Positions 19,776 to 63,411 of a DNA stretch of 64,000 nucleotides are shown here, one piece after another. Position numbers and translations under genes: made by a program. Source of the DNA: Symbiodinium sp. CCMP2592 (taxonomy: Eukaryota; Sar; Dinophyceae; Suessiales; Symbiodiniaceae); assembly GCA_905221615.1 (NCBI GenBank), contig CAJNDT010003223.1, positions 1,619,945 to 1,683,944 of the forward strand, given 5' to 3'. Every line of letters starts with the position of its first letter. Position 1 is the stretch's first letter. The notes beneath the pieces are model-generated. The model saw only the letters and a program-made list of their open reading frames with translations, had not been told where the DNA came from and ran no database searches.

Positions 19776-19903
19776 GGCCGCAGCCGGAGCTTTCGCAGTG
19801 CAAACATCGACGGAGTGAACAGATTCCAGCAGTTCTAGCAGTCACGCTTTTCTCTTCGAGCACACGTTTTTTTCTTTTATTTTTTTTTCCGTTTGGCTTT
19901 TGC

Positions 19904-20003
19904 CCGGAAGTGCACGTGTGCACCTTGTGACAAGTAGAGCGAAACAGCCGAACTGTGACTTGCCAGTCAGAGCTGTGTCCTCTCGAGTTTTGCCTTTTAG
20001 ACA
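19904..20003 (+). repeat. Split direct repeat A1 (5' end of retroelement)
   Basis: 100 bp starting CCGGAAGTGCACGTGTGCAC, identical to A2 at 28751-28850. It contains the palindrome GTGCACGTGTGCAC. It forms the 5' end of the element; the left flank is host intron. Confidence 0.92.
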
Positions 20004-20029
20004 AGCGACAGCTAGGTCCTCGTGCAGCC

Positions 20030-20878
20030 ATGGCCGAAGGACGCAAGAAGCTGAACCCGTCAGTGATGGCGGCCCTCAAGGTTCTGTGCGAAGCCAAGGA
20101 AGATGACCTCATGGATGCCCTTGAGGAGTTCCGGGTCGCACATAGAGCCCGCCTGTCAGCCCTGTTCGGACAAAGTGTGGCTGAGGGCTTGGATGCGTTC
20201 AAGCAGGTGGGCTTGGCATCGGCCCTGTTCGGAGAGCTCCCCGATCTACCGGAGCCCGGACAGGACCCGTCAGCCAGTGGCTCTGGTGAGGTACAGCCTG
20301 CCCACACGCGGGGACAACCTGTTGATGAAGACCCGCCCGTTAGCGGGGTCCAGGCAGTTCCTGACGACTACCTGGACGAGCTCCCCGCCGAGTTGGACTA
20401 CAGCCAGTTCGACATGGCGAGCCAGTCAGCCTGTGCAGCTGACACGGGCGGCCTGTTCGGAGGCTGCCCTGCCCAGCCAGCCCAGGGAGCAGTGTTCCCT
20501 GGCAAGGGCACGGTGCCAGGCCAAGTCTCCAAGAGCAAAAGCAAGGGCACTGGGCCGCCAAAGAAGTCCCCCCCGGTAGTGCCAGATGACTGGAAGCCGC
20601 CAGCCAGTTCGTCGAGCTCCGGGGCAGCAGCCTCCACCGACGCCGAGGCTGCCAAGAAAGCTGGGGCACCAAGTGGCAAGGGCACCGAGAAGGGCAAGGA
20701 GAAGACCCGTCAGCCCACCGAGCAGCCGCAGCCCAAGGCCACCGAGGACACCGATGCTACACCGAAGCTCCCGTCAGGACCTCCGGCGGGCTACTTCCCG
20801 GGCTACACAGGTGACCATCGTGGAGCTGCCGTGCCGGTGCACATGGAGGACAACTTGCCGGGCGCCACTCGTCGCTGA
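20030..20878 (+). CDS. Gag-like N-terminal protein of the retroelement
   Basis: 282 residues from the ATG at 20030, 27 bases after A1. The first 70 residues are helical and charged (MAEGRKKLNPSVMAALKVL, DALEEFRVAHRARLSALFG). The rest is Pro/Ser/Ala/Lys-rich and probably disordered. No zinc knuckle is present. By position it may be a gag-like or nucleic-acid-binding protein, but no family was recognised. A Pro/Gln-rich frame continues at about 20935-21040 (MQGQVPTVPEAHMYTPQPQ) after a frame change, so the protein may once have been longer. The AT-rich island starts about 500 bases downstream. Confidence 0.55.
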   Translation: MAEGRKKLNPSVMAALKVLCEAKEDDLMDALEEFRVAHRARLSALFGQSVAEGLDAFKQVGLASALFGELPDLPEPGQDPSASGSGEVQPAHTRGQPVDEDPPVSGVQAVPDDYLDELPAELDYSQFDMASQSACAADTGGLFGGCPAQPAQGAVFPGKGTVPGQVSKSKSKGTGPPKKSPPVVPDDWKPPASSSSSGAAASTDAEAAKKAGAPSGKGTEKGKEKTRQPTEQPQPKATEDTDATPKLPSGPPAGYFPGYTGDHRGAAVPVHMEDNLPGATRR

Positions 20879-21399
20879 GGACGGGCAGCCCTTTAGCACC
20901 ACACCTCCCACTTATTGGGACCTGAGGTCGGCATGCAGGGTCAGGTGCCCACGGTGCCTGAGGCACACATGTACACGCCACAACCTCAGGGGCTACCGAA
21001 GGGCCCACAGCAGGCACCGCTGCCCCGCATGTACAAAGGCTGATGCTTGGATGCCAGTTAGCCTAGAGAGAGGGGGCCTGTCAGAGCTGTTTTGTTACCT
21101 GTCAGCGACCGCATGTGGCAGGACCCCAGTACACTCAGCTAACAGCGACGCCGAGGTTCAGCCTCCTTCGCACAGACAGTTCGTGCAAAAGAGCCCGTCA
21201 GGGCAAGGCGCCGTTTTCGGTCGCCAGGGTTCCTTCTGCAGTCCACTTGTTAGCTTTTGTGCTCTAGGTAGAGAGCAGCCACTCCCGTCAGCTCCCGCCG
21301 GTGTGTGCTCTCGCTTCCTCCGCTGCTAAGGTCCTTGTAGCAGTGTGCAGGCAAGTGTGTGCCAGTCAGTGCTGCAGCCTGTTAGGGTGTCGATTTGCA

Positions 21400-22165
21400 C
21401 CAGAACCGAAGGAAAGCATATCCCAGCTTTCATAAATTTGAGTCGTTCGATTTTGAACCCCTATTTTTTACTATATATTATACTCTGATCAGCCAAAAAA
21501 ACGTGAGAAATAAGATCTGTCCAAAAAGTTTTTAAGTCTTCAGGCAAAAAATCATCCTCACTTATGATAGTGATTATATTTGCATCATCTTTTGAGTGAG
21601 AGTAGTGCAAAAATCTTGCTAGTTCAATCGCTTCCAAATGGCTCAAAGTAGAAGCAATACCTCCCGATTTATGAGTATTTTTCCAGCCCACCGGAAAGTG
21701 AGAGCTTTTTAAATTTTCATTTTGCATAGTACAAGGGCTTACCCCATACCAAAAAAAAACCTCGTGAAAAGCTGACGCAGAGAACATGCAACACCATCCA
21801 CGGCATCTAGAATTATCGGAAAGAGAGACACAGAGGAATGAGGAAGACTTTTTCGCAATTCCTAAATATAATAAATACCTTATGGGAACTCCAAAAGTGT
21901 CCAAGATTCTATTTCTCCGATCATATCTATGATAAAGGTTTATCACGATAATGTAAACATTATACATTCAACGATCTAAATTCTACTACATTCTCGAGAA
22001 AATAAGCTGATTCTTCTTTTTATGTACGGATGAAATATATGAGATCTCAACTTGCATTATATGGTGAAATGTAAGAAATTTATCATGACTTTAACTGAAG
22101 ACACAGAGTTTTTCGAAACAAGTCATTATAAATTCTTTTGACTTGAGTTTAGATTCTCCCTACGT
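21400..22165. other. AT-rich island inserted within the retroelement
   Basis: About 750 bp of strikingly AT-rich DNA (runs such as tattttttactatatatta) inside a GC-rich element, with abrupt edges near 21400 and 22165. The pentamer GTCAG/GTTAG, frequent on both sides, is absent here. It carries one minus-strand gene-like ORF (21461-21967). The composition and missing motif argue for an insertion from a low-GC source. No inverted repeats or duplication at its edges were seen. Confidence 0.7.
21461..21967 (-). CDS. Glycosyltransferase family 25-like protein (probably truncated)
   Basis: 168 residues on the minus strand, opposite to all other recognised genes. The N-terminus VYIIVINLYHRYDRRNRI resembles the GT25 opening (xxxINLxxRxDRR). 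Later GIASTLSHLEAIELA matches the family SHLE block, and IITIISEDDFLPED matches the EDD block that binds the metal and nucleotide sugar. GT25 enzymes transfer galactose or glucose and are found in bacteria (LPS synthesis), animals (collagen) and giant viruses. The usual length is 200-260 residues; here the frame ends soon after EDD, so the C-terminal part is missing. The AT-rich codon use is unlike everything around it, which suggests transfer from a low-GC bacterium or virus. That origin is inference. Confidence 0.6.
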   Translation of the reverse strand: MYNVYIIVINLYHRYDRRNRILDTFGVPIRYLLYLGIAKKSSSFLCVSLSDNSRCRGWCCMFSASAFHEVFFWYGVSPCTMQNENLKSSHFPVGWKNTHKSGGIASTLSHLEAIELARFLHYSHSKDDANIITIISEDDFLPEDLKTFWTDLISHVFLADQSIIYSKK

Positions 22166-22180
22166 GCTATACTTGGGGAT

Positions 22181-23817
22181 GTGGCGCTTGATGACTTGTT
22201 AGCTGCGCCAGCCAGACCAAGCAAGAAGTCCCGTCAGGACATACCCCAAGTACTGCCCCGGACACGGGGCTCTCTGCAACGGCTCGGTGTCGAGCCTTCC
22301 CCTCCAGGTTGTAACGAGGTTGCCCAAGTTAACCTGGAGGAAGCCGACAGGCTCTTCTTGAGAGACAGGTGGGCCGCTTCGTCTCAGGCTCCGCGAGAAA
22401 GCCGTTGGGTCACATGGACCCGCCTGTCAGAGCGCCGAGGGTACCCCAACATCCCCGTCACCAGTCAGTCCCTCTTTGCAGTTGGAGCTTTGCTGAAGGC
22501 TGGCGGCTACCGATCTGCCGCACAGTACATCTCGGTAGCAAAGCAGAAGCACAAGGAGGCGGGGTTCGTCTGGGGTCCAGACCTGGACGAGGCACGCGCC
22601 CAGGCCCTTCGCAGCATCAACCGGGGCCTTGGACCAGCTACTCCGAAGTTGGACCTCCGGTTAGAGAATGCGAAACCCCGCTTCACCCAAGAGAGGTCAA
22701 CATGGCCTTCGATGAGCTCCGTGTGCCCCAGTCAGATAGACTCAGGTTCCCTGCACAGGCATGCGTTACAGCATGCTGGTTCATGCTCCGAGGAATCGAG
22801 CTTGCCAACGTCCAGGCCAGAGACGTTACTTTCAACAGAGCGGCCCGCACTGTGAAGCTGCAGCTCCCCGTCAGTAAGACAGACACAGAGGCCAAAGGTT
22901 GTTACCGGATGCACCGCTGCATCTGTAACCCCAGGCACTCGTCAGAGTGCAAGCAGACTACCCCGCCAGAGCTGTTCGGGACTGCCTTTCAGAAGTGTCT
23001 TTGTGACGACGGCATGCACACTCTGTGCGCGCACCACTCCCTCCTCCGGGTAGTCGTCCAGTTGCGCCGCGAACAGACCTGGCAGCCAGACACACACTTG
23101 TTTACGGCCCGGTCAGCTGAGGTTGCCACGAAGGCACAGGTGGTCTTCTTGGCGCGAGCGTGTGCTTTTGTGTTGCAGCAAGAGCAGCTAGACCAGTGGG
23201 GATACGATGCAGTGACCCGCTGGTCGCAACACGTGTTCCGGGTAGCTGGCGCCCAGTTGTTTGCCAGGTCTCTCCTAGATGTCACATACATTCAATTGAT
23301 GGGCCGCTGGGGAGGCACATCAGTGCTTCGCTATGTGCAGGAGGCCGCCGTCATGCTGCCGGAAAAGGCGTCGGAAGCGGTGAGCTTACATGTTAGCAGC
23401 CCTTCCCTTTCCCGGGTACCCAGTAGCAGCACTCGAGCCCCCAGTCAGCTAGTGCAGCAAGGCCAGGTCCAGGACCTAGTTAGAGAAGCCGTCCAGTCAG
23501 CTTTGAAAGGCTCTCAGCTCGTGGTACACAACACCCGTTCGAAGTTGTGTCACCTACCCTCCCCCAGTGAGAGTCAACTTCCGAGCGAGTCGTGGGTTAC
23601 TTTGTGTGGTAAGTGGTGGTACGGCACAAGCTCCACTAGAAGGAACCTGTCAGTTCTTGAAGGCTACACCAAGTGCTCGTTGTGTTTCCCGTCAGCTGAG
23701 GACCGTGACCGCCCGGCAGCCTCCAGTGTTCAGGCTAGAGAAGTAGAGTCGGGCACTGATTCAGACTCCTCCCAGGAGCACAATGCCGCCAGCTCTAGCT
23801 CTGCCAGACCTCGATGA
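22181..23817 (+). CDS. Tyrosine recombinase of the retroelement, in two frames
   Basis: The enzyme cuts and rejoins DNA to integrate a circular cDNA. The N-terminal core-binding domain is in one frame (22181 to about 22685; WVTWTRLSERRGYPNIPV, GGYRSAAQYISVAKQKH). The catalytic domain continues in another frame from about 22695 to the stop at 23817. Catalytic residues visible: first Arg in WFMLRGIELANVQARDV; HxxR in WSQHVFRVAGAQLFARS; a Trp in place of the second His, in LMGRWGG; and the Tyr nucleophile in SVLRYVQEA. The frame change near 22685-22700 needs a one-base slip, either a lesion or a programmed shift. No in-frame ATG is obvious at the 5' end, where the AT-rich island adjoins. The C-terminal 130 residues are Ser-rich. 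It overlaps the next ORF by 35 bases. Confidence 0.82.
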
Positions 23818-24718
23818 TGTTGCTGCCAGGGCAGGTTTTGACACCGAAATTATTGCTTACCTGTCAGCTAAAGGCATCACCAACGCAGGCCTCTTCCTGC
23901 ACTACTTCACAGATCACACAAAGATTGCCCCGTTCTTTGAACCGCTGCGTGCAGGATTTGACCTGGCAGGCAGCACAGTTAAGAGGACAGACGACGAAAG
24001 GCTCATCTTGGAAGCAGCTACTTTGGTAGCGCTCGATGAGCTTTCCGTTAGGCGTACTCAGATGCCTGCAGCATCCACGCCAATTGCTCCGACCGCCCCG
24101 TCAGGATCCTCTGCGCCGGCAGCATCGGACTCTGACAAGGTTCCCAAAACCCTGCCAAAGAACTACTGGTCCGACTATGTCAAAGAGTTTGAGTCTGTGG
24201 TCCTGTTAGGTCGCAACAGAGAGTTCCCAGCACACCTGTTGTTAGGAGCTGAAGAAGTGCTAGCTAGAATGGTGCACCAGCACCAGGTCTCCAAGCAGTA
24301 CTCTCCTGTCCGGCTCGGAGAGATAATCTCCTTACGCCACTTCACACCGGGCAAGGCAGCCAACCCGTTCGCGCCCAAGGACGACAGCCGCACCAAGATG
24401 ATCCTCGACGACTCAGGTACCTTTAACAAGGCCATGCGTCACGTGCCGGAGCCCCAAAAGCTTGTTACCCTGTTAGATGCAGTGGATGCCATCAAGTGGG
24501 CCCTCATGTTCTCCCGTTGGTGTGACGAACATGACGCTAGTTCGTGGGCCGAGTTTTGGCAGAACCTTTGCAGGGACTACCCCAACAAGTATCCCCAAAT
24601 TAGGGCGTTCTTTGACAAGGCTTTCCTACATGTTAGTTTGCAGATGAGAGCCAACAAGTCCTTCCATGAGGCAGCCAGTGAGGTGATGGCGTGGCCCAAG
24701 CAGGAAAGGCAAAGGTGA
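23783..24718 (+). CDS. Second gag-like protein of the retroelement
   Basis: 311 residues from the ATG at 23783, overlapping the recombinase end by 35 bases. It is mostly helical. It begins LPDLDDVAARAGFDTEIIAYL and has a conserved-looking core (NYWSDYVKEFESVVLLGRN, FPAHLLLGAEEVLARM). No catalytic motif was seen. Its place directly before a CCCH finger suggests it is the structural (gag) part of a gag-nucleocapsid protein. It stops at 24716-24718, after which a Gly/Lys-rich stretch (GKGDQGHKGDSKG) runs on in another frame up to the finger. Confidence 0.55.
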   Translation: MPPALALPDLDDVAARAGFDTEIIAYLSAKGITNAGLFLHYFTDHTKIAPFFEPLRAGFDLAGSTVKRTDDERLILEAATLVALDELSVRRTQMPAASTPIAPTAPSGSSAPAASDSDKVPKTLPKNYWSDYVKEFESVVLLGRNREFPAHLLLGAEEVLARMVHQHQVSKQYSPVRLGEIISLRHFTPGKAANPFAPKDDSRTKMILDDSGTFNKAMRHVPEPQKLVTLLDAVDAIKWALMFSRWCDEHDASSWAEFWQNLCRDYPNKYPQIRAFFDKAFLHVSLQMRANKSFHEAASEVMAWPKQERQR

Positions 24719-24811
24719 TCAAGGTCACAAAGGCGACTCCAAGGGTGTTAAAGGTAAGTCGTTTGACAAGGGTTTCGACGGCGGTAAGGGCAAGTTTGCC
24801 GGTCAGCGCCA

Positions 24812-25621
24812 GTGGCAGTCCTCAGCCCTTTTAGCCAGCCTCGTCCCCAGTGCCGACTGTTTGCCCAGGGATTCTGCAAGTTCGGTTCCGCGTGCAAGTT
24901 CGCACATGGCCCCCAGACAGCTGCTGTTCCTCCAGGCTTGCCTCAGTTCCCACCTGTTGTGCCGCAGGCTCCGTTTCAGGTGGCACCGCGAACTTAGGGA
25001 CAGCACGGCCAGCTGGAGGGCCCGCCAGTCAGAGCCGACCCACCCTGTCAGGGCCAACAGCCAGCCCAAAGGCACCCGTCGGTGCCACAAGCTTCGACAC
25101 AACTTGCAGATACTTTCCCTAACCCGTGCGCTCCTGCACCCACCCGGTGTGCAGGCCCTAACCCTAAGTCTGTGTGTACAGCTCGCCAGGATGTTGCGCC
25201 GATCACGGCTAGCACTCCAGTCGCACCTTGCTCCAGTCAGCCAACACTCACTCCCACCGCTCCACACCCTGTTGGGCCTGGACTTGGCTTTCACACTCAA
25301 CCAGCCTTGGCAACCGTGCCATCCCAGCCTGTGCAGTGCTCCCTCACGGTTGAGCACCCGTCCGCAACCTCTCCACGCCCTCCTGCAGTGTTGTGCTCCC
25401 ACCGGGTCGAGCACTCACACAACCCTTCTAAACACTCCCCACCACAGGGGAACACAGCAAGCCTCATCCAGCCTCACCCAAAGCCTCTCTCCTTCCTCCT
25501 GCAGTGGTGTGCCGCCGACAGGGCGAGCACCCACACACACCTCTATCGCCCACTTCGACTTGGGCTACTCACCAACCTCAAACAGCACACAGACCGTCCC
25601 GTCCGTCCTCTCGCCCCGTAG
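24812..25621 (+). CDS. CCCH zinc finger plus Pro/Ser/Thr-rich linker (broken frame)
   Basis: The frame from 24812 contains CRLFAQGFCKFGSACKFAH, a C-x7-C-x5-C-x3-H zinc finger of the RNA-binding CCCH class. Here it probably does the job of a nucleocapsid finger. One in-frame TAG at 24995 interrupts it. The same frame then runs from 24998 to 25621 as a Pro/Thr/Ser/His-rich, probably disordered linker (TASTPVAPCSSQPTLTPTAP). The methyltransferase begins next in a different frame. It was likely once a single gag-linker-methyltransferase polyprotein. Confidence 0.6.
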
Positions 25622-26262
25622 CAGTCCTTTCCTTCTTTTGTGGCCTGGGCACCACCTTCTTAGCCCTCCGTGACCTTGGCGTGTCGCCCGTCATCTCCTG
25701 GTCTTGGGAGGTCAACGAGGACTGCAAGAGGGTCACCTCGAGTCACTCTCCTCACGTTAGACACTGGGGTGACGCTTTGACCTGCAACCCTCAGTCTGTC
25801 GCCGAGTTGCTGCGCTCCCAGTGCCCCTCAGACACCTTGGTGCTCGTGTGCTCGAGCCCTCCTTGCACAGACTTCAGCCAGATTCGCTCCCGTCAGCCTG
25901 GGCTTCAGGGTAGCGAAGGTTGTAAGTTCAGGTTGTGGGTGGCCTGGTTTAAGAAGTTCCGGTCAGCGTTGAAAAGACAACACGTCTTTTTAGTCGAGAA
26001 CGTGGTAACAGCGGCCGCCCTCCAGTCAGAACTGAGCAGCCTTCTGCAAACAACCGCCTTTGTGGTTGACGCGGCCTCCTTCGGTTTGACTTCGCGACCG
26101 AGACTCTGGTGGTCCAACGTGATCACACCTCCCGGTAGTGACACACCACAAAACCAAACCCCGCCAGTGCTCGCGGGTTTGGCGCGTTGGGGGAAATTTA
26201 ATAAGTCTTGGCAGCTTTTGCCTAGTTCGCTGGCATCTCCGAGTACTCCCGGTGCAAGATGA
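25504..26262 (+). CDS. Cytosine-C5 DNA methyltransferase (DNMT-like) carried by the retroelement
   Basis: Recognisable from about 25621. Motif I, SAM-binding: LSFFCGLGTTFLAL. Motif IV with the catalytic Cys: VCSSPPCTDFSQIR (PCT rather than PCQ). Motif VI: VFLVENV. Motif VIII-like: FGLTSRPRLWW. Motif X (MIGNSWHLPSARF) follows in the next frame, overlapping the stop at 26260-26262 through ATGA. A frame slip between about 26200 and 26226 would join them. No large target-recognition domain is evident between VIII and X, so the enzyme is compact. Cytosine methyltransferases captured by retrotransposons are known from Symbiodinium. Its role could be to methylate its own or host DNA. ORF residues upstream of 25621 are probably shadow. 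Confidence 0.85.
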   Translation: MVCRRQGEHPHTPLSPTSTWATHQPQTAHRPSRPSSRPVAVLSFFCGLGTTFLALRDLGVSPVISWSWEVNEDCKRVTSSHSPHVRHWGDALTCNPQSVAELLRSQCPSDTLVLVCSSPPCTDFSQIRSRQPGLQGSEGCKFRLWVAWFKKFRSALKRQHVFLVENVVTAAALQSELSSLLQTTAFVVDAASFGLTSRPRLWWSNVITPPGSDTPQNQTPPVLAGLARWGKFNKSWQLLPSSLASPSTPGAR

Positions 26263-27242
26263 TCGGAAACTCCTGGCACCTCCCGTCAGCTCGCTTCATC
26301 TTGTTCGTTTTGCTGGCCAGTTGTAACGTGATCCCAGTGACAGCGGGACCAGTACCCGAATGGTACCCACGAGTAGATGCTCTACCGTGGAGCTCTAACC
26401 TCAACCCGTTAGGGGCCCGCCCGATCGAGCGCGCAGCAAAGATCTGGCTTTCTTCAGGGCTTCAGTGGGATCCCCGAGAACCCCCTAGCTTGCACCTGTC
26501 AGGACCCACTGAGGACACTCAGCAGCACTTGCAGTGGGCGCTGTCCCTTGACTCCAACAAGCTGCATTTTTCTGTGAACAACCCGTGTGTGCAGTGGGCT
26601 CTCCAGTTCGGGCAGAGCCTAGGTCGTGACCTCAGCCGGTGGAGAGAAGAGCTTGTTCAGGACGTTCGCAGCCTGAAGGAAGACCTCCTGTTCGAGCAGG
26701 AACAGTGGCTCCTGTCAGCACCCCAGCACGTGCAGCAAGTCTACCGAGTCTACCGCCAAGGTGGAGAGTCACTGGTTCTTCAACCCCTGGTAGTGCTCCA
26801 CCTTCTTACCTTGTTCGAGTTTCCTGGTACCAACGAGGTAGCCGAAGAACTCCAGTTCGGCTTTAAGGTGTTAGGCCCCCTTACCCCGGGCACCGGATGG
26901 GACGCCCGCCAGGACTCTAAGTACAGCAGGCCTCTCTCCCGTTCGCAGTTCCAGGCGCTCAACACCGAGCACAAACGCGCCTTGTACTCCGACACCAAGG
27001 AGTCGGAACACACAGCAACGATGCTTGAAGAGATTGCTAAGGAACAGCTGAAGTCCAGGTTCCAAGCCCCGTTCGAACCGGGCACGATAACATCCGACCA
27101 GCAGTCACGCGCTGCACGCGCGTTCCCCGTAGTCCAACAAGACAAAGTGCGACGCGCCGACGACTGGCGCAGATCGCACCATAATAGCACCGTGTTTGTG
27201 CAGGACTCCCCCCACCTTACGCGCGGACACAGTCAGTTCTGA
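26259..27242 (+). CDS. Methyltransferase motif X fused to reverse transcriptase fingers
   Basis: 327 residues. It opens with MIGNSWHLPSARF, which is motif X of the upstream methyltransferase rather than a genuine start, so the ATG at 26259 is probably internal to a fusion. Residues about 40-210 are helical with no motif. The RT part starts at GFKVLGPLTPGTGWDAR and includes ARAFPVVQQDKVRRADDWRR, the fingers segment typical of DIRS-type RT. The frame ends at 27240-27242. The palm continues in another frame after a run of six Cs near 27207-27212, the likely site of an indel or slip. Confidence 0.75.
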   Translation: MIGNSWHLPSARFILFVLLASCNVIPVTAGPVPEWYPRVDALPWSSNLNPLGARPIERAAKIWLSSGLQWDPREPPSLHLSGPTEDTQQHLQWALSLDSNKLHFSVNNPCVQWALQFGQSLGRDLSRWREELVQDVRSLKEDLLFEQEQWLLSAPQHVQQVYRVYRQGGESLVLQPLVVLHLLTLFEFPGTNEVAEELQFGFKVLGPLTPGTGWDARQDSKYSRPLSRSQFQALNTEHKRALYSDTKESEHTATMLEEIAKEQLKSRFQAPFEPGTITSDQQSRAARAFPVVQQDKVRRADDWRRSHHNSTVFVQDSPHLTRGHSQF

Positions 27243-27280
27243 ACCTGGTTCAGGCGGCAGCCCAGTTCGGCGAGCCCACA

Positions 27281-28252
27281 GTGGCAGCCCTAGACCACGA
27301 CGGGGCTTACCGAGCACTTCCCGTTCGAGATTCTCAGGAGTGCTACGTTTTCGTCCCCAACCAAGCCCAACCCAGCGTGTTCCGACATTTGGTGCTCCCG
27401 TTCGGAGGCACGGGCAGTGTCTGGAGCTACCTGAGGATAGCTGACATCATTTGTTTTCTGACCATCACCATGTTGTTCATCCCGGCAGCACATTTTGTCG
27501 ACGACTACTTTTACTCCGAGCCGTCACACACCAGTGAGTCAGCCTTCACGTCTTTCTGCCTGCTGCAAGCCTTGTTAGGTTTCCAGATGAAAGAGTCCAA
27601 GGCCCAAAAGCCAACAACCCACGCCACCTTGTTAGGCGTTGTGTGGGAGATCCTTGCCGATAGCGTGAAAGCTGGACCCAGTCCTTCTAGGATTTCCAAG
27701 CTCCAGAACCTGGTAGAGAAGGCCTTGTCCGAAAACAGACTCACACCGGACGAGGCTGCACACTTGGCAGGCAAACTCAACTTCGTTTGCTCTTGGGTCT
27801 TTGCAGGTGTGGGAAAAGCCCTTTTGAAACCTCTTTACACCAGGCAGCACTGCCCTTTCCCCCAGACGTTCTTGAACGAGCCCTTGAGAGCGGCACTCAG
27901 GAGCCTGTTAGGCCGGCTCCCTTTGCTAAAGCCGAGGACCTTTCCGCTGAGAAGCTCCCTCAACCCTCACAAGCCACATCTGCTCTACGCGGATGCCTAC
28001 ATAACCCTGGCTGGATCCCGTCAGGCAGCTAGCAAGTGGCTGAAGCAGGCGACAGCTCTTTCGGTCCTGAAGGGCTCTAGCAACGGAGTCGGTGCTGTCT
28101 TCCTCTCGCCGTCAGGAGAGAAACTCGCCTTCCGAACAGAAGTACCAGTTAGACTTCTCAGCAAGGTGGCCACGACCAAGGCATTCATTTTTTGGCTGGA
28201 GGTGCTGGCCCAGATTATGAGCCTGGCAGCAGTCTCGTCCTCCCTGTCATGA
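27281..28252 (+). CDS. Reverse transcriptase palm/thumb and start of RNase H
   Basis: The coding frame really begins upstream (VLNLVQAAAQFGEPT) after the C-run slip. RT motif A: ALDHDGAYRALPV. Motif B: LPFGGTGSVWSYLR. Motif C, catalytic: HFVDDYFY. Thumb: PDEAAHLAGKLNFVCSW. RNase H begins at LLYADAYITLAGSRQAAS and NGVGAVFLSPSGEKLAF. The FVDD form and LPFG motif B fit the DIRS/Ngaro branch. The frame ends at 28250-28252 in the middle of RNase H. Confidence 0.85.
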   Translation: MAALDHDGAYRALPVRDSQECYVFVPNQAQPSVFRHLVLPFGGTGSVWSYLRIADIICFLTITMLFIPAAHFVDDYFYSEPSHTSESAFTSFCLLQALLGFQMKESKAQKPTTHATLLGVVWEILADSVKAGPSPSRISKLQNLVEKALSENRLTPDEAAHLAGKLNFVCSWVFAGVGKALLKPLYTRQHCPFPQTFLNEPLRAALRSLLGRLPLLKPRTFPLRSSLNPHKPHLLYADAYITLAGSRQAASKWLKQATALSVLKGSSNGVGAVFLSPSGEKLAFRTEVPVRLLSKVATTKAFIFWLEVLAQIMSLAAVSSSLS

Positions 28253-28575
28253 GACGTGGTGTGTTTCGTAGACAACAGTGCCAGTGAGCACGCACTTAAG
28301 AAAGGCTACTCCTGTTAGGTTGGTTCTGGAGTTGGGTTGCCTCTAGGAATCTAAACCTTTTCTTTGTGAGGGTCTCCAGCAAAGCGAACTTGTCAGACGC
28401 GGCTTCAAAAGGAGACTGGGCACCAAGCGACTCGTTAGGGTGCCGACGCTGCAGCCCCGACTTCAGCAAGACGTGGGACACCTTGCAGAAGTTGACAGAG
28501 ACCTCTGTGAAGCCCGACGCGGCCCTGTTCGAGAACCTGGTCGGCCTGTTAGCGCTGCCAACCGCCGCCCAGTGA
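28253..28575 (+). CDS. RNase H C-terminal part, frame-shifted
   Basis: Immediately after the stop at 28252 another frame reads VVCFVDNSASEHALKKGYS, the RNase H Asp-Asn block of DIRS-type elements. A further shifted frame (to 28575) gives SKANLSDAASKGDWAPS, the conserved RNase H tail. Two frame changes within 150 bases mean the domain cannot be made as read. The sequence ends 33 bases before repeat B1. Confidence 0.65.
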
Positions 28576-28608
28576 GCCGCGCGTGAGAGTGGTCGTTCCG
28601 CGCGGAGT

Positions 28609-28750
28609 GGCAGACTGCGGACCGACCTGTTCGCCTTGAAAGGGCTTGAGCAGGGGTCCATGACCCGACGCCACGACACTCCGCGGGTAGTGGAAAAGAA
28701 GAGCGAACTCCTGTTCGCAGCCGGTTAGAAGCTGTAGGAGCGAGACTTGT
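28609..28750 (+). repeat. Split direct repeat B1
   Basis: 142 bp starting GGCAGACTGCGGACCGACCT, directly abutting A2. It differs from B2 at three positions near the middle. Confidence 0.9.
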
Positions 28751-28850
28751 CCGGAAGTGCACGTGTGCACCTTGTGACAAGTAGAGCGAAACAGCCGAAC
28801 TGTGACTTGCCAGTCAGAGCTGTGTCCTCTCGAGTTTTGCCTTTTAGACA
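28751..28850 (+). repeat. Split direct repeat A2
   Basis: 100 bp identical to A1. It sits between B1 and B2 with no gap to B1 and a 19-bp spacer (28851-28869) before B2. The B1-A2 join is the expected sequence of the circular integration intermediate's junction. Confidence 0.92.
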
Positions 28851-28869
28851 CCCTCCACACCCGCCCGGA

Positions 28870-29011
28870 GGCAGACTGCGGACCGACCTGTTCGCCTTGA
28901 AAGGGCTTGAGCAGAGGTCTGTGACCCGACGCCACGACACTCCGCGGGTAGTGGAAAAGAAGAGCGAACTCCTGTTCGCAGCCGGTTAGAAGCTGTAGGA
29001 GCGAGACTTGT
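28870..29011 (+). repeat. Split direct repeat B2 (3' end of retroelement)
   Basis: 142 bp matching B1 apart from three substitutions. It ends ...GCGAGACTTGT, followed by CTGGACC of host DNA, whereas B1 is followed by CCGGAAG of A2. This places the 3' boundary at 29011. Confidence 0.9.
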
Positions 29012-29031
29012 CTGGACCTTCGTGGCCGAGG

Positions 29032-40570: not shown

Positions 40571-40795
40571 ATCGTGACCCTGATAGGGTGTCTTTCTCTA
40601 CGACAGTGTGAGTAGGTTCCGTGCAGGTGCAGTCTCAGAAGATTGGGGAACGCTGGCAGCCCGTGGCCCACAGCCAAGAAACCCACCGAGCTTTTCCGTC
40701 CCGAGCAACTCACAGCACTCTGCGAGGAATGTACCTTTGCCAGACACTGACAAACCAACGAAACAGTCAAAGCTGACAACGCTGCCATTGTGCCC

Positions 40796-42735
40796 ATGCT
40801 TGCTGCAGATGGCCTCGGCAGTGTATTCCAGCGATTAGCACAGACGCAGCCCAAAGCTCCAGCTGTGCTGGACAGAACTGGCGTCTGGAATTACGCGCAG
40901 TTATGGGATTCTGCGGGGCGCATATCCTGCTTCTTCGCAGAGAGAGGTTTGAAAGCCTCGCCTTCGACAGAATTCGCCCCACGACCCATTGCGATTTTCC
41001 TGCGGCAGGGTCGGGAGTGGTATGCTACTTGCATTGCAGCCTGGATCTTGGGCATCCCCGTCGTTGCATTAAGCAGCGATCTTCCAAGTGGACAGGCCGA
41101 AGCTGAGCGGGCCAAGCGGGTCGCCAGCGAGCTGAAACCGCTGGCGCTGGTCTCGGACGACTCGGCGTTTGAAGTGCCATGCCTGCCGGAGGACTGCTTG
41201 CGCCTCTCGCTGGAAGAGGTGCGCAGCGCCATATCAAGCTGTAATGGGCGGAAGCCCGCAGCGTGTGCGTCTTCGGAATCTGTACTTTGCTACGTCTACA
41301 CCGGGGGTACGACACGGCACAGCAAATGTGTTGCGGTAACCCATGCAATGGCATTATGGGAGATCCAGCAGTACAAGACGGCCCTGGGTGGCCTGGCGAG
41401 CGAAGGCGACAGGATGCTGCAGTACTCGTCTGCGTACTGGGGTGCCGCCATCTTTGGCCAAGCAGACCTGGCCCTGGCTTTCGGCGCATGCAACGTAATC
41501 ATCCGAGCGAGCGCCCCGGAGGAGATTGCGGCCATTTGTGCGGAGCATCAAATTTCAGTGCTGGGCATTGTGCCATCGCAACTGCGAGGGGCATGGCCCG
41601 GTGGACCAAGCACGAGACCAAGAAGCTTGCGAGTGCTTATCGCATGGGCTGAGAAGATTCAACCCAAGCTAGCTAAAGAATGGCTTCAACACCTGCCTGT
41701 CATCGAGATACTGATTGCCTCTGAGTACTGGCTTTGCCTCTCCTCGGTTGGATGTCGGACGTGGAAGGATCCGGATGACGGCATGGAGCGTCATGTTCTG
41801 GACCCTCTACCCGACCTCGACATCAAGCTGCTGAAGGAAAATGGTTCGGAGGCAGAGGCCGGGGAGAGTGGCGAAATGTTCTTGGCAGGCCCGACGGTAT
41901 TTGCTGGCTACGTGGGGGCAGACGGCCGCATCAGCTGCCCAAACTTTCGGTACCTCGACGCCAAACGGTACTATGGAACCCGCGACCGACTCAAGCGTGT
42001 TCCTGGGGGTCGTGGTCTTGTATATCTCGGACGAACCGACTCTTTGGCAAAGGCTGGCGGTGCATGGCAAGATCTTGAAGCAGTCGAGGCTGCAGCCACA
42101 GAAGTGTCTCAGCAAGCACTGGCAGCCATGAAGGCACTGAATCAGGTGGCAGGTTCAGATGAGTCTTACCAGTTTTGTGTATGGTAGACAACCACGGACA
42201 AAGTTAGGGAACCCCCTCATTTCAGTCTTGCCATCTGGCCCAACATTCCTTCTCAGGTTACATGTTGAATGCAGACTTCAACACGGGGCTTCAAGTCAAT
42301 ACACTAGTCACCCAGGTTCCAGGCGTGTCAGCGGCTGCGCTTGTTGCCTGTGATGGCAGTACCGATGCCTACCTGGTCCTGGAAGACATGCGTGATGGAG
42401 CTGGAAGAGCTCGGGAAGGTCCACCACTTACCGCTGTGCTGGACAACGTAATGCAAAAACTGAAGCCTGCTGCCGGCAACTCGAGACCTCACATTTGGGC
42501 ACGGCTGCCCCTGCACCCAGCTACGAGCAAAGTGAATCGGCAAGTGCTCCTTGCGCAGCGGAGTGAAGCCACTGCGCGGGAGACGAACTGGCACGAGAGG
42601 CTCCACAGCCTCCAGCGCCGAATGCTAAGGGGCTACGCAGCATGGCACGTTTTATTCGGCATCTTGATGCTCCTCAGAGCTTCTGTGGAGACACCGGCTC
42701 CGACGCCGACTCTTTTGCAAGGGCCTTGGCCGTAA
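40796..42735 (+). CDS. AMP-binding adenylation enzyme (NRPS-like A domain)
   Basis: Activates a carboxylic or amino acid as an acyl adenylate. From the ATG at 40796 one long exon runs to 42152. A 104-bp GT-AG intron (42153-42256) follows, then an exon to the TAA at 42735; the join NQVA|GYMLNADF keeps the frame. Visible core motifs: A3 VLCYVYTGGTTRHSK (usual YTSGTTGxPK, here with a changed P-loop); A4/A5-like region LQYSSAYWGAAIFGQ and EILIASEYW; A7 RYYGTRDRLKRV; A8 LVYLGRTDSLAK; A10 LPLHPATSKVNRQVLL, with the catalytic Lys. The C-terminal 60 residues (RMLRGYAAWHVLFGILMLL) are partly hydrophobic. Substrate unknown. It lies between topoisomerase blocks 3 and 4 and upstream of NRPS-like carrier and condensation exons, so it may be the first part of one NRPS gene. 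Confidence 0.8.
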
Positions 42736-55018: not shown

Positions 55019-55368
55019 ATTGACCTCCCGCAGATGTCGGAAGGGCCAGTACAGGGGTCGCAGTGGGGGCAACTCCAAGTGGCGGACGGGGTGCTGGAGC
55101 TCAGCGAGTCGGGGCAGTCAGTGGAGTTGGTCAGTGGCGAGCAGTCGGAAGGGGCACAGGACACCTTGGCTACATCAGGCTGGGAGGACGAACAGGGAAC
55201 TGAGCCGGACACTGCTGTACCTCGTCGTGTACCACCACATGTGGCAAGTGAAGAACGTGATCAAGTGGGCAGCTAGGTTTTCTACTGAGGGGTCAAAGCC
55301 GCGTTCCCAACCGGGATTCCATTCTTGCAGACTCTGCTGGACGGAAAAAGGCGTTCAAAAAAAAAAAA
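55019..55368 (+). mobile_element. 5'-truncated LINE copy (3' end only) with poly(A)
   Basis: 350 bp matching the last 350 bp of the downstream full LINE (62943-63294) with one substitution (G at 55303, T at 63227) and a slightly shorter A tail (12 versus 14). It holds the end of ORF3 (MSEGPVQGSQWGQLQ) and the 3' UTR. Such 5' truncation is typical of target-primed reverse transcription. CCCTAAA-like sequence lies on both sides. Confidence 0.92.
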
Positions 55369-55552
55369 CCCTGAAACCTAAACCCGGTTGTTTTCCCCCC
55401 GGTGTGTGTCCCCTGTGTAGTGCTTGGCGAGCGGGGCTGAGTTTCGCGACTGGCGCGAGTTCTACCTGATTCTGCCGGCTCACGAGAAGCTCGGCGGGTT
55501 CTCGGGGCCCTGTTCGCCGCCCTTTACCTGTTTCTGTTGAAGATCGGGGCAC

Positions 55553-56506
55553 ATGTCGCGTGGAAGGAAGCGTGACGAACCCATGCCGGCAGAGGACGTC
55601 TCGGTTCCAAGCAGTTCTGGAGATGAAGGGGATCGTAGTCCTAAGCGTCCTGCACCTGTTGCTGATGCCCCGGTGACGCTGCGTGAGCTTCGCAGCATTC
55701 TGTCGGAGCAAACCAAGCAACTCACTGTTCTCCAGGCGGGGGCGGTTGACAAGGCAGTGCATCGTTTGGAAAAGACTCTGGAGACGCGCCTGGCCGAGGT
55801 GGACTCTCGAGCAGAACAGATGGACGCCAGGGTTGGCGCTTTGGAGAAACAGATCGAAGAGTTGTTGCAGCAGGGCGCGGCTGTGCCAAAGTTCCACGGT
55901 TTAGGGAGTGACGACTCGGCGAGAAGGGCAAGGACATTGGTTTATGGTGGCTGGCCGCGTGAGAGCCGGAGGAAGGTGATTCTTGCGGAGCTCCAGGAAC
56001 ACCTCACTGCTCTGGGGGTCGCCTCGCTCCTCGACCATGATCCTTTTACCACGGGGGCTAGACGGAGTATGGCTCTCTCAGGCTTCCAGCAACGGGCTGG
56101 TGAAAGTTTCCAGGACATGCGATCTCGCATGCACAAAATTGTGATCGCTTTCAGCTCGGGCAATCTGACTAACAAGCAGGGGGGTCGGATTTGGGCCAGT
56201 TATTCGAAGAGCAAAGCCGAGCGTGAGAAAGGATCGCATGCAGGGTGGGTGAAACGAGCATCGGCGAGCCTCCTGGACGTCTCCGAGGTCAATATGGATA
56301 TTGAGTGGCAGACTGGATCGGTGTGGTGCGAGGACACATTGGTGGCGTCCTCTGATCTCCCGGTGCCGCCTGGCACTGATATGCGAGGGGTCCTTGTTCG
56401 TGATGATCAGGATGCTAAACCATGGGTCTCCTTCAAATTGCTCGCGGCAGGGTTGAAGCAAAAAGAGAAGGAGGTCAAACAGGCCCTTGAGGATTGCAAG
56501 CGCTGA
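55553..56506 (+). CDS. LINE ORF1 protein
   Basis: 317 residues from the ATG at 55553. The N-terminus is basic and Ser-rich (RGRKRDEP, SPKRPAPV). Residues about 43-105 form a coiled coil (VTLRELRSILSEQTKQL to RVGALEKQIEELLQQ), probably for multimer formation. It is followed by an RRM-like fold (RTLVYGGWPRESRRKVILAE, SMALSGFQQRAG, KIVIAFSSGN). This coiled coil-RRM order is that of L1-type ORF1 RNA chaperones. It ends at TGA 56504-56506, and ORF2 continues in the same frame with no further stop. Confidence 0.75.
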   Translation: MSRGRKRDEPMPAEDVSVPSSSGDEGDRSPKRPAPVADAPVTLRELRSILSEQTKQLTVLQAGAVDKAVHRLEKTLETRLAEVDSRAEQMDARVGALEKQIEELLQQGAAVPKFHGLGSDDSARRARTLVYGGWPRESRRKVILAELQEHLTALGVASLLDHDPFTTGARRSMALSGFQQRAGESFQDMRSRMHKIVIAFSSGNLTNKQGGRIWASYSKSKAEREKGSHAGWVKRASASLLDVSEVNMDIEWQTGSVWCEDTLVASSDLPVPPGTDMRGVLVRDDQDAKPWVSFKLLAAGLKQKEKEVKQALEDCKR

Positions 56507-59344
56507 CTCGCCAGTTCTGATGCTGACAACTGTGACAGTGAGCTCAGGGTTCTCGGCTGGAATCTTGGTGGTGCGGAGGTCCAAGACCTGCCGCGCACAC
56601 TTGCGGATGCTACTCCTTTGCAGATGGAAAAGGACTCCATTCTCCTCCTGCAGGAATACCCGAGGGGTGCACAGGGATGGGCCGTTGAGAAGCAAGGGCA
56701 GTGGACGGTTGTCACTCATAGGCATGGAGAAGCGTGGCGAGGGTCAGGGTTGATGTACTGTACTGACGCGTGGTGCCTGACGAGACGGGTTTGCACAGCT
56801 AAGGGCACTTGGTTTCGGCTCCGTTCCATCTCGGTTGCTGAGGACATCCTGTGGGTTGGTACTGCACATTTCACACCTGGGTCCACGGTGGCGGTGTATG
56901 AGAATGAGGTCGAGGACCATTTTCAAGCTTTGCCCTCTAGTGCCAAAAGGGTTGTTTTCCAAGGTGATGTGAATACGCCGTTCCTTTGGGTGAAGGATGG
57001 GGCTGCAGTTACTGCGGTTGCTCGTGAAGGCAAAGGTGGCTTGTTGCAGAAGGCCTTTCATGACAAGGGTTTGGTTATGATTGCTCCAGTGGATGGTCAA
57101 CACTCAACGCCGACTTGCCGTCCACGGCAGGCGGGCCGAACAGGACAGCATATCGATGTCTTTGCGAGCAAGGGATTACACGCAGGGGGCACGCACATCC
57201 ATATTGATTCGCACCTTGCTGGGGGCACCGATCATGAACTCATGCATGGTTGCTTTCGATCTACATGGTGTCGCAGAACCTCTCGGCGTTCGACCAGGGC
57301 CAGGGTTGTGTGTGGTACATTTGGGGTTATCACGCATGTCGACCAGCCTACCCTGGCAGCTTTGGCTATCACTCACACTAAGCCTGCACCGGGCCGTGCT
57401 TACAGGGACCCATCGGATGTTCGCGACCTGTTCAAACGTGCCAAGCAACGAGGCACCCCCGCCTTGTGGAAGGCGGCTCTCAAGGCGCGGAAAGTGGCGA
57501 GGAAGGCGTGGGAGGCCGAGAGACTTCAGAGGGCTGCAGGTGGTGATTGGGATGCCATCCGGGAAATCAAGGGAGTGAGAAATGAAGGTTGGGACGTCGA
57601 GTTTGCGCTCCATCAACAGGGTGACCCTCACGAGGCAATTCATCGGCACTTCCAAGGGGTTTACTCGAGCCGTCGCAGGGATCCAGTCGTACCAAAGTCT
57701 GATGAGGAGGTCCGGGGCTTCACGATCGAAGAATTGTGGACAGGGATTAAGCAGCTCAAAGGGCGGAAGGCAGTTGGCAAGGATTTGACATCGAGGGAGC
57801 TCTTGGAAGGGATCTGCCATGCGGAAGGTGGGGCGGAGCACGTTGTTGAATTCTTCAACCGCGTGTTGGTGGCACAGGAGGTGCCCACCGAATGGAATGA
57901 ACCGTTGCTGGTGATGCTCCCTAAGGTTTCGCATCCACATTGCCCTCGTGAACTTCGACCCATCGCACTTGGTTCATCGGTAGGAAAGCTCTTCAGCCGT
58001 CTCTTGCTTAATCGTTGTCTCGAGAAAATCCGACTCCAATACCCACCTCAATGCGCTGGAGTTCATCGTCAAACCAACGACTTCACTTACTCATTGATTC
58101 GCCTCTTTGAGTTGGAACGTGAATGGCAGGGGGGCATGGCGGCTTTGAAGGTGGATATCAGTCGTGCGTTTGATGATGTCGACAGGGATGTGTTGGTAGC
58201 AAAGCTGGAACAGAAACTTGGACCTGGGCCAGAACTCCAATGTTGGAAAAGTCTCCTTGCCAACAATGCTGCGACCCTCTCCACCCCTTTTGGGGAATCT
58301 ACTATTGAGGTTGGGAAAGGGATAAAGCAGGGAGGGATCGAATCGCCGGCTTTCTTCTCGATGCTCATGGAGCTCGCAGTTCGTGAAGCTGAGGTCGAGT
58401 ACGATTGGATGCACAGGCAGCGACTTTACCCAGACCTCCAATGCCCGGATGCTGCCCTCTTTATGGATGATGGTGTTCTGTGGACCTTGGGGACTAAGGC
58501 TTTGCAGCAACGAGTCTCTGAATTGTCTCGGGTACTTTTTCGGTACGGCCTGAAGGTGAACCTCGCTAAATGCCAATTGTATTGTGCTCCTTGTTGCCCC
58601 GGGCCGCCTCTTTTGCGGATGGAGGGTCAGGTTCTTCATGCGAGTGATCATCTGTCGGTGATGGGGCTCAGGCTCCAGGTTGGGCAGTCTATCTGCGCTC
58701 TGGTGTCCCCTCTTGCCACAAGGTGCCGTGCGAAGTTCTGGGAAATTCGACACATCCTACGTGCACAAGGGCAACTGTTTTCGAGGGTTAGGGTCATGCA
58801 ACGCATTGTTGGGGCATCGGCATTGTGGTGCATTGCTTCGATACCACCTGATAAGGCTGCCATGTCTATGTTGAACAGTGTGCAGTTGCAACTTCTCGTG
58901 TGGTTACTACGGCTTGGTCGTCGCAAAGATGAAACGTGGACGGGTTTTCGACAACGTGCCTTCAGGTCTGCCCGCGCTGTTCTTCACAATGCCAAGTGTG
59001 AACGTTGGTCGACTATATGGCTTAGAAGATATTGGCAGTTCGCTGGGCATCGTGCAAGGGCTGCTGATCACCCGTGTCCATGCATCAGCACAGTGCTCGA
59101 AGGGTTCCGGTCCTTGGGATGGTGGAGGGTCGAAAAGCATCGAAAGGATGGGATCAAACACAACGGAAAACACTATGCACGTCTCACGCTCCTTGAACAA
59201 TGCCTCGACGAAGCTGCGCGTGGGGAATGGCGAATGGTTGCAAGGGATAGGGTTGCATGGAGGCAGGGCGAACAACGCTGGGTGGAGCACATGGATCTTC
59301 CGTGGTCGTCGGGGCGTCAACTGAGCATTGCTAATGATTTTTAG
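56507..59344 (+). CDS. LINE ORF2: APE endonuclease and reverse transcriptase
   Basis: 945-codon open frame directly after the ORF1 stop; the first ATG is at 56624. The endonuclease fold starts before that ATG (LRVLGWNLGG, about 56543-56573), so translation probably begins upstream or by readthrough. Endonuclease marks: WN, LLLQEYPRG (Glu), GTAHFTP, FQGDVNTPF (DxN), and GGTDHELMH in place of SDH. RT from about 57900: LPKVSHPHCPRELRPIAL; motif A KVDISRAFDDVDR at 58150; motif B GIKQGGIESPAFFS; motif C ALFMDDGVLW at 58456, with the catalytic DD. The C-terminal 250 residues have no clear zinc knuckle. Nicks target DNA and primes reverse transcription from the nick. Confidence 0.9.
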   Translation, partial: LASSDADNCDSELRVLGWNLGGAEVQDLPRTLADATPLQMEKDSILLLQEYPRGAQGWAVEKQGQWTVVTHRHGEAWRGSGLMYCTDAWCLTRRVCTAKGTWFRLRSISVAEDILWVGTAHFTPGSTVAVYENEVEDHFQALPSSAKRVVFQGDVNTPFLWVKDGAAVTAVAREGKGGLLQKAFHDKGLVMIAPVDGQHSTPTCRPRQAGRTGQHIDVFASKGLHAGGTHIHIDSHLAGGTDHELMHGCFRSTWCRRTSRRSTRARVVCGTFGVITHVDQPTLAALAITHTKPAPGRAYRDPSDVRDLFKRAKQRGTPALWKAALKARKVARKAWEAERLQRAAGGDWDAIREIKGVRNEGWDVEFALHQQGDPHEAIHRHFQGVYSSRRRDPVVPKSDEEVRGFTIEELWTGIKQLKGRKAVGKDLTSRELLEGICHAEGGAEHVVEFFNRVLVAQEVPTEWNEPLLVMLPKVSHPHCPRELRPIALGSSVGKLFSRLLLNRCLEKIRLQYPPQCAGVHRQTNDFTYSLIRLFELEREWQGGMAALKVDISRAFDDVDRDVLVAKLEQKLGPGPELQCWKSLLANNAATLSTPFGESTIEVGKGIKQGGIESPAFFSMLMELAVREAEVEYDWMHRQRLYPDLQCPDAALFMDDGVLWTLGTKALQQRVSELSRVLFRYGLKVNLAKCQLYCAPCCPGPPLLRMEGQVLHASDHLSVMGLRLQVGQSICALVSPLATRCRAKFWEIRHILRAQGQLFSRVRVMQRIVGASALWCIASIPPDKAAMSMLNSVQLQLLVWLLRLGRRKDETWTGFRQRAFRSARAVLHNAKCERWSTIWLRRYWQFAGHRARAADHPCPCISTVLEGFRSLGWWRVEKHRKDGIKHNGKHYARLTLLEQCLDEAARGEWRMVARDRVAWRQGEQRWVEHMDLPWSSGRQLSIANDF

Positions 59345-59493
59345 GGCTTCGCTGTGTCTACTTGCTTCTGAGTGTGCTGGCTGTACAGTTTCTCATGAGG
59401 GCCATGTCCGAGTGCTGTTGTGAAGGCTGAACCCCTGATGTTTAGCGCTCGAGACTGTTGGCAACTCTTGCAGCTCCAGCCACTCCTGCCAGC

Positions 59494-63200: not shown

Positions 63201-63294
63201 GTTTTCTACTGAGGGGTCAAAGCCGCTTTCCCAACCGGGATTCCATTCTTGCAGACTCTGCTGGACGGAAAAAGGCGTTCAAAAAAAAAAAAAA
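62943..63294 (+). repeat. LINE 3' end duplicated at 55019-55368
   Basis: Direct repeat partner of the truncated upstream copy at an offset of 7924 bp. One mismatch plus two extra As. Confidence 0.95.
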
Positions 63295-63411
63295 CCCTAA
63301 ACCGGCCCTTGTTCTCAGTGCGGCGGAGGCGAAGCAGCGAGCGGCGGCCAGCGGCCGCTGATGCCGGCGATCGACATGCCGGGACTTGGATCCTCAGCTC
63401 ATTACTTTTGG

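Follow-up and report, generated by a model that had tools for sequence, protein, structure and literature searches.

How the proteins of a retrotransposon choose their own RNA is largely open. The question is raised by a retroelement located at positions 19904-29016 of a 64,000-nt stretch of DNA from Symbiodinium sp. CCMP2592 (assembly GCA_905221615.1, contig CAJNDT010003223.1, positions 1,619,945-1,683,944, forward strand), which carries a short sequence word in many copies on its sense strand. The whole stretch is called the window, and coordinates are positions within it. The element is almost certainly a broken copy of a tyrosine recombinase (YR) retrotransposon of the SymbioDIRS-Dnmt3 kind, its reverse transcriptase (RT) and ribonuclease H (RNase H) being assigned by motif. 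The gene order is ORF1 (open reading frame 1), YR, gag and a pol encoding a Dnmt3-type methyltransferase, RT and RNase H. When the source assembly (1.098 Gb in 5383 contigs) was searched at the DNA level, at least seven matches were obtained, the window copy among them. We name these copies family A; the other six were all analysed. They are 80-91% identical among themselves and 82-86% identical to the window copy. A protein search with the YR gave at least 113 matching pieces in the same genome, and two sister families were distinguished, whose YRs are 43-44% (family B) and 32% (family C) identical to that of family A.

The word CCNGTYMG occurs in all seven family A copies, with 64-78 sites on the sense strand and 0-2 on the antisense strand. 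The flanks contain 0-1 sites per strand, and the rest of the window contains 4 and 14 on its two strands. Within the window element GTYAG was counted 67 times, with a C at position -3 in 60 and at position -2 in 52 of these sites. Dinucleotide shuffling of the window copy, without its AT-rich block, yielded 4.5 words on average and 12 at most, compared to 72 observed. Shuffling of synonymous codons in its coding pieces yielded a mean of 7.5 and a maximum of 15, compared to 48 observed. In the copy L013, the density of the word is 10.3 per kb in noncoding sequence (7 sites) and 8.3 per kb in coding sequence (66 sites). Moreover, the sites are spaced more evenly than expected at random: the coefficient of variation (CV) of the spacing is 0.65-0.72 in six family A copies versus 0.90-0.91 in simulations, and the fraction of simulations at or below the observed value ranges from 0.001 to 0.025. 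For the window copy the CV is 0.99, and the AT-rich block forms the longest gap.

The word is also conserved. In ten chosen copy pairs, 503 of 661 aligned word sites were shared, and the sequence identity was 0.922 inside the word and 0.797 beside it. Permuted patterns shared 0.353 of their sites on average (standard deviation 0.188, maximum 0.762; 193 of 300 patterns, those with at least 20 sites). Fourfold degenerate sites were identical in 232 of 280 cases inside the word and in 1641 of 2910 cases outside (Fisher p=2e-19). This value comes from three pairs involving L013, which are not independent; each pair alone gave p below 5e-6. In predicted folds, the openness of word sites exceeded that of 8-mers of the same composition only slightly (0.44-0.46 versus 0.38-0.40).

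A functionless origin of the word from context-dependent mutation or codon-pair bias has to be considered, since 34 of the 48 word sites in the coding parts of the window copy begin in one codon phase. However, the other phases are used as well, noncoding sequence is as densely occupied as coding sequence, shuffles that preserve codons or dinucleotides do not produce the word, and synonymous sites inside it are more conserved, not less. This explanation is disfavoured and appears very improbable. We are highly confident that the family A word is real and under selection, including at synonymous sites.

Each sister family has a different word. The counts on the sense and antisense strands were 73/2 for the A word in family A, 73/8 for the B word in family B, and 81/6 for the C word in family C. 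In the other families, each of these words has 0-22 sense copies, and the highest value was found for the C word in the family A copy L010 (22/4). In family B, CCNGTYAG is not a common word; GKTCGC is found instead. It is more frequent in the sense than in the antisense direction in all 19 loci examined, many of which are closely related or overlapping, and it is shared in 164 of 325 aligned sites, compared to a mean fraction of 0.17 and a maximum of 0.58 for 85 permuted controls. Codon shuffling gave z values of 6.3 (GKTCGC, one element) and 9.2 (GNTCGC, five pooled YRs), and the spacing has a CV of 0.71 versus 0.93 in simulations. In family C, the word ACNNCGA was counted 81/6 and 90/5 times in two near-identical elements, with codon-shuffle z values of 8.3 and 8.7.

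Such words also occur outside the YR elements: a Copia family (L052-L054 on contigs C3535, C4445 and C4756) carries ACTTT 57-61 times in sense and 3 times in antisense orientation within 3.7 kb. In L052, the 58 sense sites (3 antisense) are distributed over the three frames as 22/21/15, 21 of the 58 lie outside the ORF, and the mean spacing is 63 nt with a CV of 0.68. The codon-shuffle z values of the three copies are 8.2-8.5; the copies are 95-99% alike, which is too close for an informative test of conservation. For comparison, the top z was 4.0 in codon-shuffled family A and 3.6-5.2 in eight shuffles of a Copia ORF. On the sense strand, the word of a family recurs about every 60-130 nt and in all frames, and noncoding sequence, tested for A and Copia, carries it as well. 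It is probable that other Gag-type families possess similar words.

An endonuclease domain is present in both of the LINE-like loci examined, together with RVT_1 in one of them; neither showed a strong word (top z 4.8 and 4.2), and two further loci gave 4.2 and 4.1. At about 3 kb, family A still reaches a z of 8.3, but pieces of B and C of similar length stay at 4.7 and 4.3. The LINE result therefore excludes only a word as strong as that of A (8.3) or Copia (8.5).

The words are sense-only, frame-free, dense, selected and family-specific, and these properties fit an RNA reader that is encoded by the element and binds at many sites. For this reason Gag is a natural candidate, and the word might be an RNA address for the Gag of its own family, recognized via the zinc finger or a basic tail. 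We consider this the leading explanation but a tentative one, at rather less than even odds. In a wider reading, every one of the Gag-encoding families concerned (the three YR families and one or more Copia families) would label its RNA over the whole length with a selected word of its own, read by its own Gag; LINE-like elements, whose RNA is not packaged in Gag particles, would lack such a word. We estimate the probability of this reading at roughly one in three. If it is true, the words would constitute a self-recognition code with dialects, by which many families share a cell without packaging each other's RNA.

Alternatively, the word might be read by a host RNA-binding factor that promotes export, stability or translation of the long intronless element RNA or prevents its splicing. 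Such repeated elements exist; CAR-E is a repeated export element of intronless mRNAs. A sense-stranded word that is not bound to a frame, lies in coding and noncoding sequence and is present in elements of two orders is compatible with this explanation. In contrast, four families of one genome have four different words, which a single factor would not require, and the two LINE-like loci, albeit a weak test, lack a strong word. A host factor is in our view unlikely. Due to the little power of the LINE control, the odds for Gag were lowered slightly, and those for the host factor were also shifted slightly.

A third explanation places the reader at the level of DNA, where the word might be a polar site in the cDNA for RT, YR or Dnmt3 and might, for instance, direct self-methylation or integration. 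YR and Dnmt3 are encoded in each of the three YR families, and CG is part of both the B and the C word. On the other hand, the main A word CCNGTYAG has no CG, the ACTTT of the Copia family would need a separate explanation, and the strict strand bias fits RNA more simply. We regard a DNA-level reader as improbable.

A life cycle can be proposed by likeness to known elements of the DIRS order. A sense RNA would be transcribed from the element and translated into Gag and, via readthrough of a UAG codon, into Gag-Pol. With Gag as the reader, many weak sites along the RNA would enable a family to cover its own transcript and package it in the presence of rival families, and the word would then resemble the packaging signals dispersed in viral RNAs, with a dialect for each family. 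The packaged RNA would be reverse-copied, the split repeats would permit a circular cDNA with a B-A junction, and the YR would integrate this circle, producing no target-site duplication. The cDNA or the newly inserted copy may be methylated by Dnmt3.

Several observations weigh against recognition of each word by its own Gag. The Gag of family C has no CCCH finger, so that this finger is no universal reader. In family A, one permuted control shares 0.762 of its sites, as much as the word itself (0.761), and the two commonest permuted controls, with 0.75 and 0.73, closely resemble the word; the openness of the word sites is close to the overall mean of 0.43-0.44. The C word is mildly sense-biased in family A, too (14/6 and 22/4). 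The B word is modest, with a z of 6.3 in one element and 4.7 in 2.3 kb, and the overlapping control GTKCGC is shared at 0.58, compared to 0.50 for the word. Family C is a weaker case: its two elements share 97.8% of their sequence over 9.5 kb, the spacing is random (CV 0.88 versus 0.90 in simulations, for the looser pattern AC N1-2 CGA), and the word does not emerge from a 3-kb subset (top z 4.3). Another Copia gives a borderline result (z 5.4, with null values up to 5.2), the gypsy-like long terminal repeat (LTR) element of the window has no coherent word (top z 5.2-5.3), and the LINE contrast has little power. The locus L057 also contains CTTCG 18/0. A stable hairpin after the gag-pol UAG is significant only in family C (z -3.45); the z values of two A and two B sequences range from -0.89 to +0.92. 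Finally, strand bias is unspecific, as a host stretch contains AGAGA 64/8. Strand bias alone was rejected as proof of a motif, as simple repeats in this host stretch reach the same score. Since, in addition, expectation maximization on family C gave codon periodicity and no motif, codon shuffles were used.

Known systems offer partial parallels. The dispersed packaging signals of RNA viruses, as described in the text of PMC6281560, consist of a common recognition motif that is repeated many times along a single genomic RNA. The family A word is likewise present in many copies on the genomic strand and is under selection. However, the viral signals are motifs of sequence and structure, whereas the word is linear, has little structure and occurs in retrotransposons, one per family. 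The DNA uptake sequences of Neisseriaceae are, according to the text of PMC3630211, repeated words for self-recognition with lineage dialects around a shared core. Similarly, the words of families A and B share a GTYMG-like core; the uptake sequences are bacterial and act on the uptake of DNA. In the literature searched, no description of a dispersed word specific to a family was found. A dense, family-specific and selected word is a direct handle on the choice of RNA by retrotransposon proteins. If general, it would allow elements in repeat-rich genomes to be delimited and oriented quickly and compatible families to be defined.

The features of the window element are compiled in Table 1. A preliminary description had reported split direct repeats in the arrangement A1-genes-B1A2B2 and a recombinase ahead of gag, methyltransferase and RT. 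Both were confirmed; the repeats follow the scheme A-coding-B-A-B. The dispersed word was not part of that description. On inspection of the junctions, no obvious target-site duplication was seen.

Table 1. Features of family A in the window, with strand and properties.
Feature	Position	Strand	Properties
Word CCNGTYMG = CCNGT(C/T)(A/C)G	19963..28989	+	72 sites, 2 on opposite strand; spread over whole element, none in AT-rich block
Repeat A1 (5' end of element)	19904..20003 (aligned 19900-20003)	+	99% to A2 over 104 nt
ORF1	20030..21047	+	CxxC...CxxC stretch at C end; open to 20878; homology to L013 ORF1 (two pieces) to 21047
AT-rich block	21389..22155		GC 0.35, ~765 nt; foreign to family A
Tyrosine recombinase remnant	22151..23811	+	residues 49-601 of L013 YR, two frames; R 22789, K 22876, HxxR 23230-23241, W 23308, Y 23332, these in one frame
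gag	23783..24994	+	premature stop 24716-24718; CCCH zinc finger 24848-24907 (Pfam match in L013)
UAG between gag and pol	24995..24997	+	same frame in relatives; then GGACAGCACGG
pol (Dnmt3-type methyltransferase, RT, RNase H)	24998..28572	+	five matching pieces; one 1300-codon frame in L013
Dnmt3-type cytosine methyltransferase	25606..26300	+	motif I 25627, PPC 25852, ENV 25990, motif X 26265
RT and RNase H region	27242..28572	+	FVDDY 27494-27508; motif-level assignment
Repeat B1	28609..28755	+	97% to B2 over 147 nt
Repeat A2	28751..28850 (aligned 28747-28850)	+	99% to A1 over 104 nt
Repeat B2 (3' end of element)	28870..29016	+	97% to B1 over 147 nt

The recombinase-first order might be the product of a rearrangement peculiar to the window copy, which does carry the AT-rich block and a deletion. 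The other copies were examined for this, as the preliminary description had proposed. All six show the order ORF1, YR, gag, pol, with one additional isolated ORF1 match close to the 3' end of L012, and in none of them does the recombinase lie downstream. The YR likewise precedes gag and pol in one family B element and in family C. A rearranged composite is thus refuted in this genome and was rejected. The complete A1...B1A2B2 arrangement is present in four of the six copies; L009 stops after one B, and L013 is truncated by the end of its contig. Being common to the three families, the position of the YR before gag and pol is old in this genome.

In PAT, Kangaroo and Ngaro elements the YR normally follows RT. 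The window YR resembles that of the DIRS order in its residues R, HxxR, W and Y. The texts of PMC4157794 and PMC8547959 describe PAT, Kangaroo and Ngaro as YR retrotransposons with split direct repeats, among them A1-[ORFs]-B1A2B2; in Kangaroo, the YR is inverted, and Ngaro has no methyltransferase, unlike the window element. The methyltransferase of the DIRS class is described as a Dam-like adenine type unrelated to cytosine DNMTs. In VIPER/TATE, the text and a figure legend of PMC6681497 point to the order gag-like, YR, RT/RNase H, and some VIPER copies have A1...B1A2B2. These elements are similar to the window element in the position of the YR ahead of RT/RNase H and, for some VIPER copies, in the split repeats. 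In contrast, their gag-like ORF comes first and no methyltransferase is among their three ORFs, whereas the window element encodes one and has its YR before gag.

The closest match is SymbioDIRS-Dnmt3 (de Mendoza et al. 2018, PMC5890265), a DIRS element of Symbiodinium with Dnmt3 in Pol and a separate tyrosine recombinase ORF, whose RT is stated to be too divergent for Pfam. The text reports A-coding-B-A-B repeats and two structures in which the order of integrase and Pol is shuffled. The view that such an order had not been described together with split direct repeats is therefore not supported. The window family shares the A-coding-B-A-B repeats, the Dnmt3-type methyltransferase in one Pol ORF with RT, and the separate YR ORF; its domain order may correspond to one of the two published structures. 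Term searches of the main text yielded no mention of a dispersed word, of readthrough between gag and pol, of a zinc finger or of an additional ORF1 in these elements, and the term gag occurs 0 times. Relative to this account, the window family adds the dispersed word, the probable UAG readthrough, the CCCH finger and ORF1. The gene order itself adds one more case to a type that has already been published; what is new is the dispersed word.

The genes of the window copy are damaged. In L013, open frames of 373 (ORF1), 601 (YR), 435 (gag) and 1300 codons (pol) are found; its gag contains a CCCH zinc finger (Pfam E 5e-7) and its pol a Dnmt3 domain in which motif X is only faintly matched. Comparison of L013 with the window copy, L009 and L010 gave ratios of nonsynonymous to synonymous substitution rates (dN/dS) of 0.06-0.11 for YR, gag and pol at a dS of 0.63-0.98; for the near relative L012, the pol value is 0.26 at a dS of 0.08. 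These copy lineages therefore diverged while functional. ORF1, which begins at about 20030 and is an additional first gene that the preliminary description had not named, matched no Pfam family.

The residue set of the recombinase had been called complete. R, HxxR, W and Y, and also K, are indeed present, and all are invariant in 13 of 13 aligned YRs (three from family A, nine from B, one from C). However, the gene is not intact: residues 1-48 of the L013 YR are missing next to the AT-rich block, and the frame changes once. All 17 matches of a YR profile to PDB sequences at E up to 1 are Cre/Tre recombinases (best 3.7e-4). They cover at most profile positions 89-288, i.e. the N-terminal domain and the first catalytic R, not HxxR to Y. 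The YR matched no Pfam family, a phmmer search of PDB with the window YR frame gave nothing useful, and neither did PHROGs with YR and ORF1 (a single match of unknown function, E 0.29). AlphaFold modelled the YR poorly (pLDDT 49.5), and the result was not used.

The stretch that encloses the AT-rich block has 785 nt at a GC content of 0.35 in the window copy, compared to 355-456 nt at 0.55-0.57 in the other six copies. The block thus sits in a GC-rich host and element. It contains a minus-strand open frame of 168 residues, which resembles a glycosyltransferase-25-type fragment by eye only and had no match in Pfam or viral contigs.

The methyltransferase had been taken for a compact C5 enzyme. 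Its assignment as a cytosine methyltransferase stands, as all 29 matches to PDB sequences at E up to 1 are DNMT3A/B/C (best 1.5e-10). Its compactness is not a natural form and was rejected as such: about 316 nt are missing near 26228-26234, where the window copy has 60 nt and the six other copies have 376-378. The observed/expected ratio of CpG is 0.67-0.72 in family A, 0.76 in the host and 0.73 in the window LTR element; it is 0.95 in the family B element B165 and 1.14 in the family C element C170, although all three families encode a cytosine methyltransferase. RT and RNase H can be assigned at the level of motifs, from their position, short motifs and conservation, and the FVDD of the preliminary description was found as part of FVDDY. 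Neither Pfam nor PDB sequences matched these domains; one PDB search with RT gave chance repeats only. Scans of viral contigs with RT, YR and the frame of the AT-rich block revealed no relative, and the methyltransferase gave one short match (53% over 30 residues) on a 6.6-kb contig (L001). The spliced-leader sequence had 0 matches in the window at two mismatches (0.19 expected).

Family B shows homology to the C end of ORF1, followed by YR, a gag with CCCH finger (as in family A) and Dnmt3/RT/RNase H; an element on C165, examined on its 3' side only, ends in a 164-nt direct repeat of 100% identity. Family C has different upstream ORFs, then YR, gag and Dnmt3/RT/RNase H. At least 38 places in the YR search match the query at 34-35%. 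In the stretches examined, terminal repeats of family C were not found. This family (L046-L050) seems to be high-copy and recent, with extra ORFs of about 400 and 733 residues upstream of the YR.

The gag-pol junction UAG-GGACAGC[A/T]CGG is found in five of seven family A copies (those keeping the region), in both family C elements and, as matches to the pattern, in 6 of 19 family B loci. In four copies (L009, L011, L012 and L013), the frame of gag continues directly beyond the UAG as an open pol. The conserved context and the in-frame pol suggest that readthrough of the UAG is likely.

The LTR element of the window (55019-63303), which served as a control, is a second retroelement. It is gypsy-like, with 362-bp LTR-like direct repeats (98.9% identical), ORFs of 945 (RVT_1, E 9e-16) and 1003 residues and a DUF6822 match at 62322-63200; TGGGG occurs 20/0 and GGGAT 21/1 times in it. 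The open frames of L055 and L056 (contig C5051) look bacterial by eye, and this contig may be bacterial DNA in the assembly. An AMP-binding enzyme is encoded by a single open frame at window positions 40751-42187 (Pfam E 1.6e-39).

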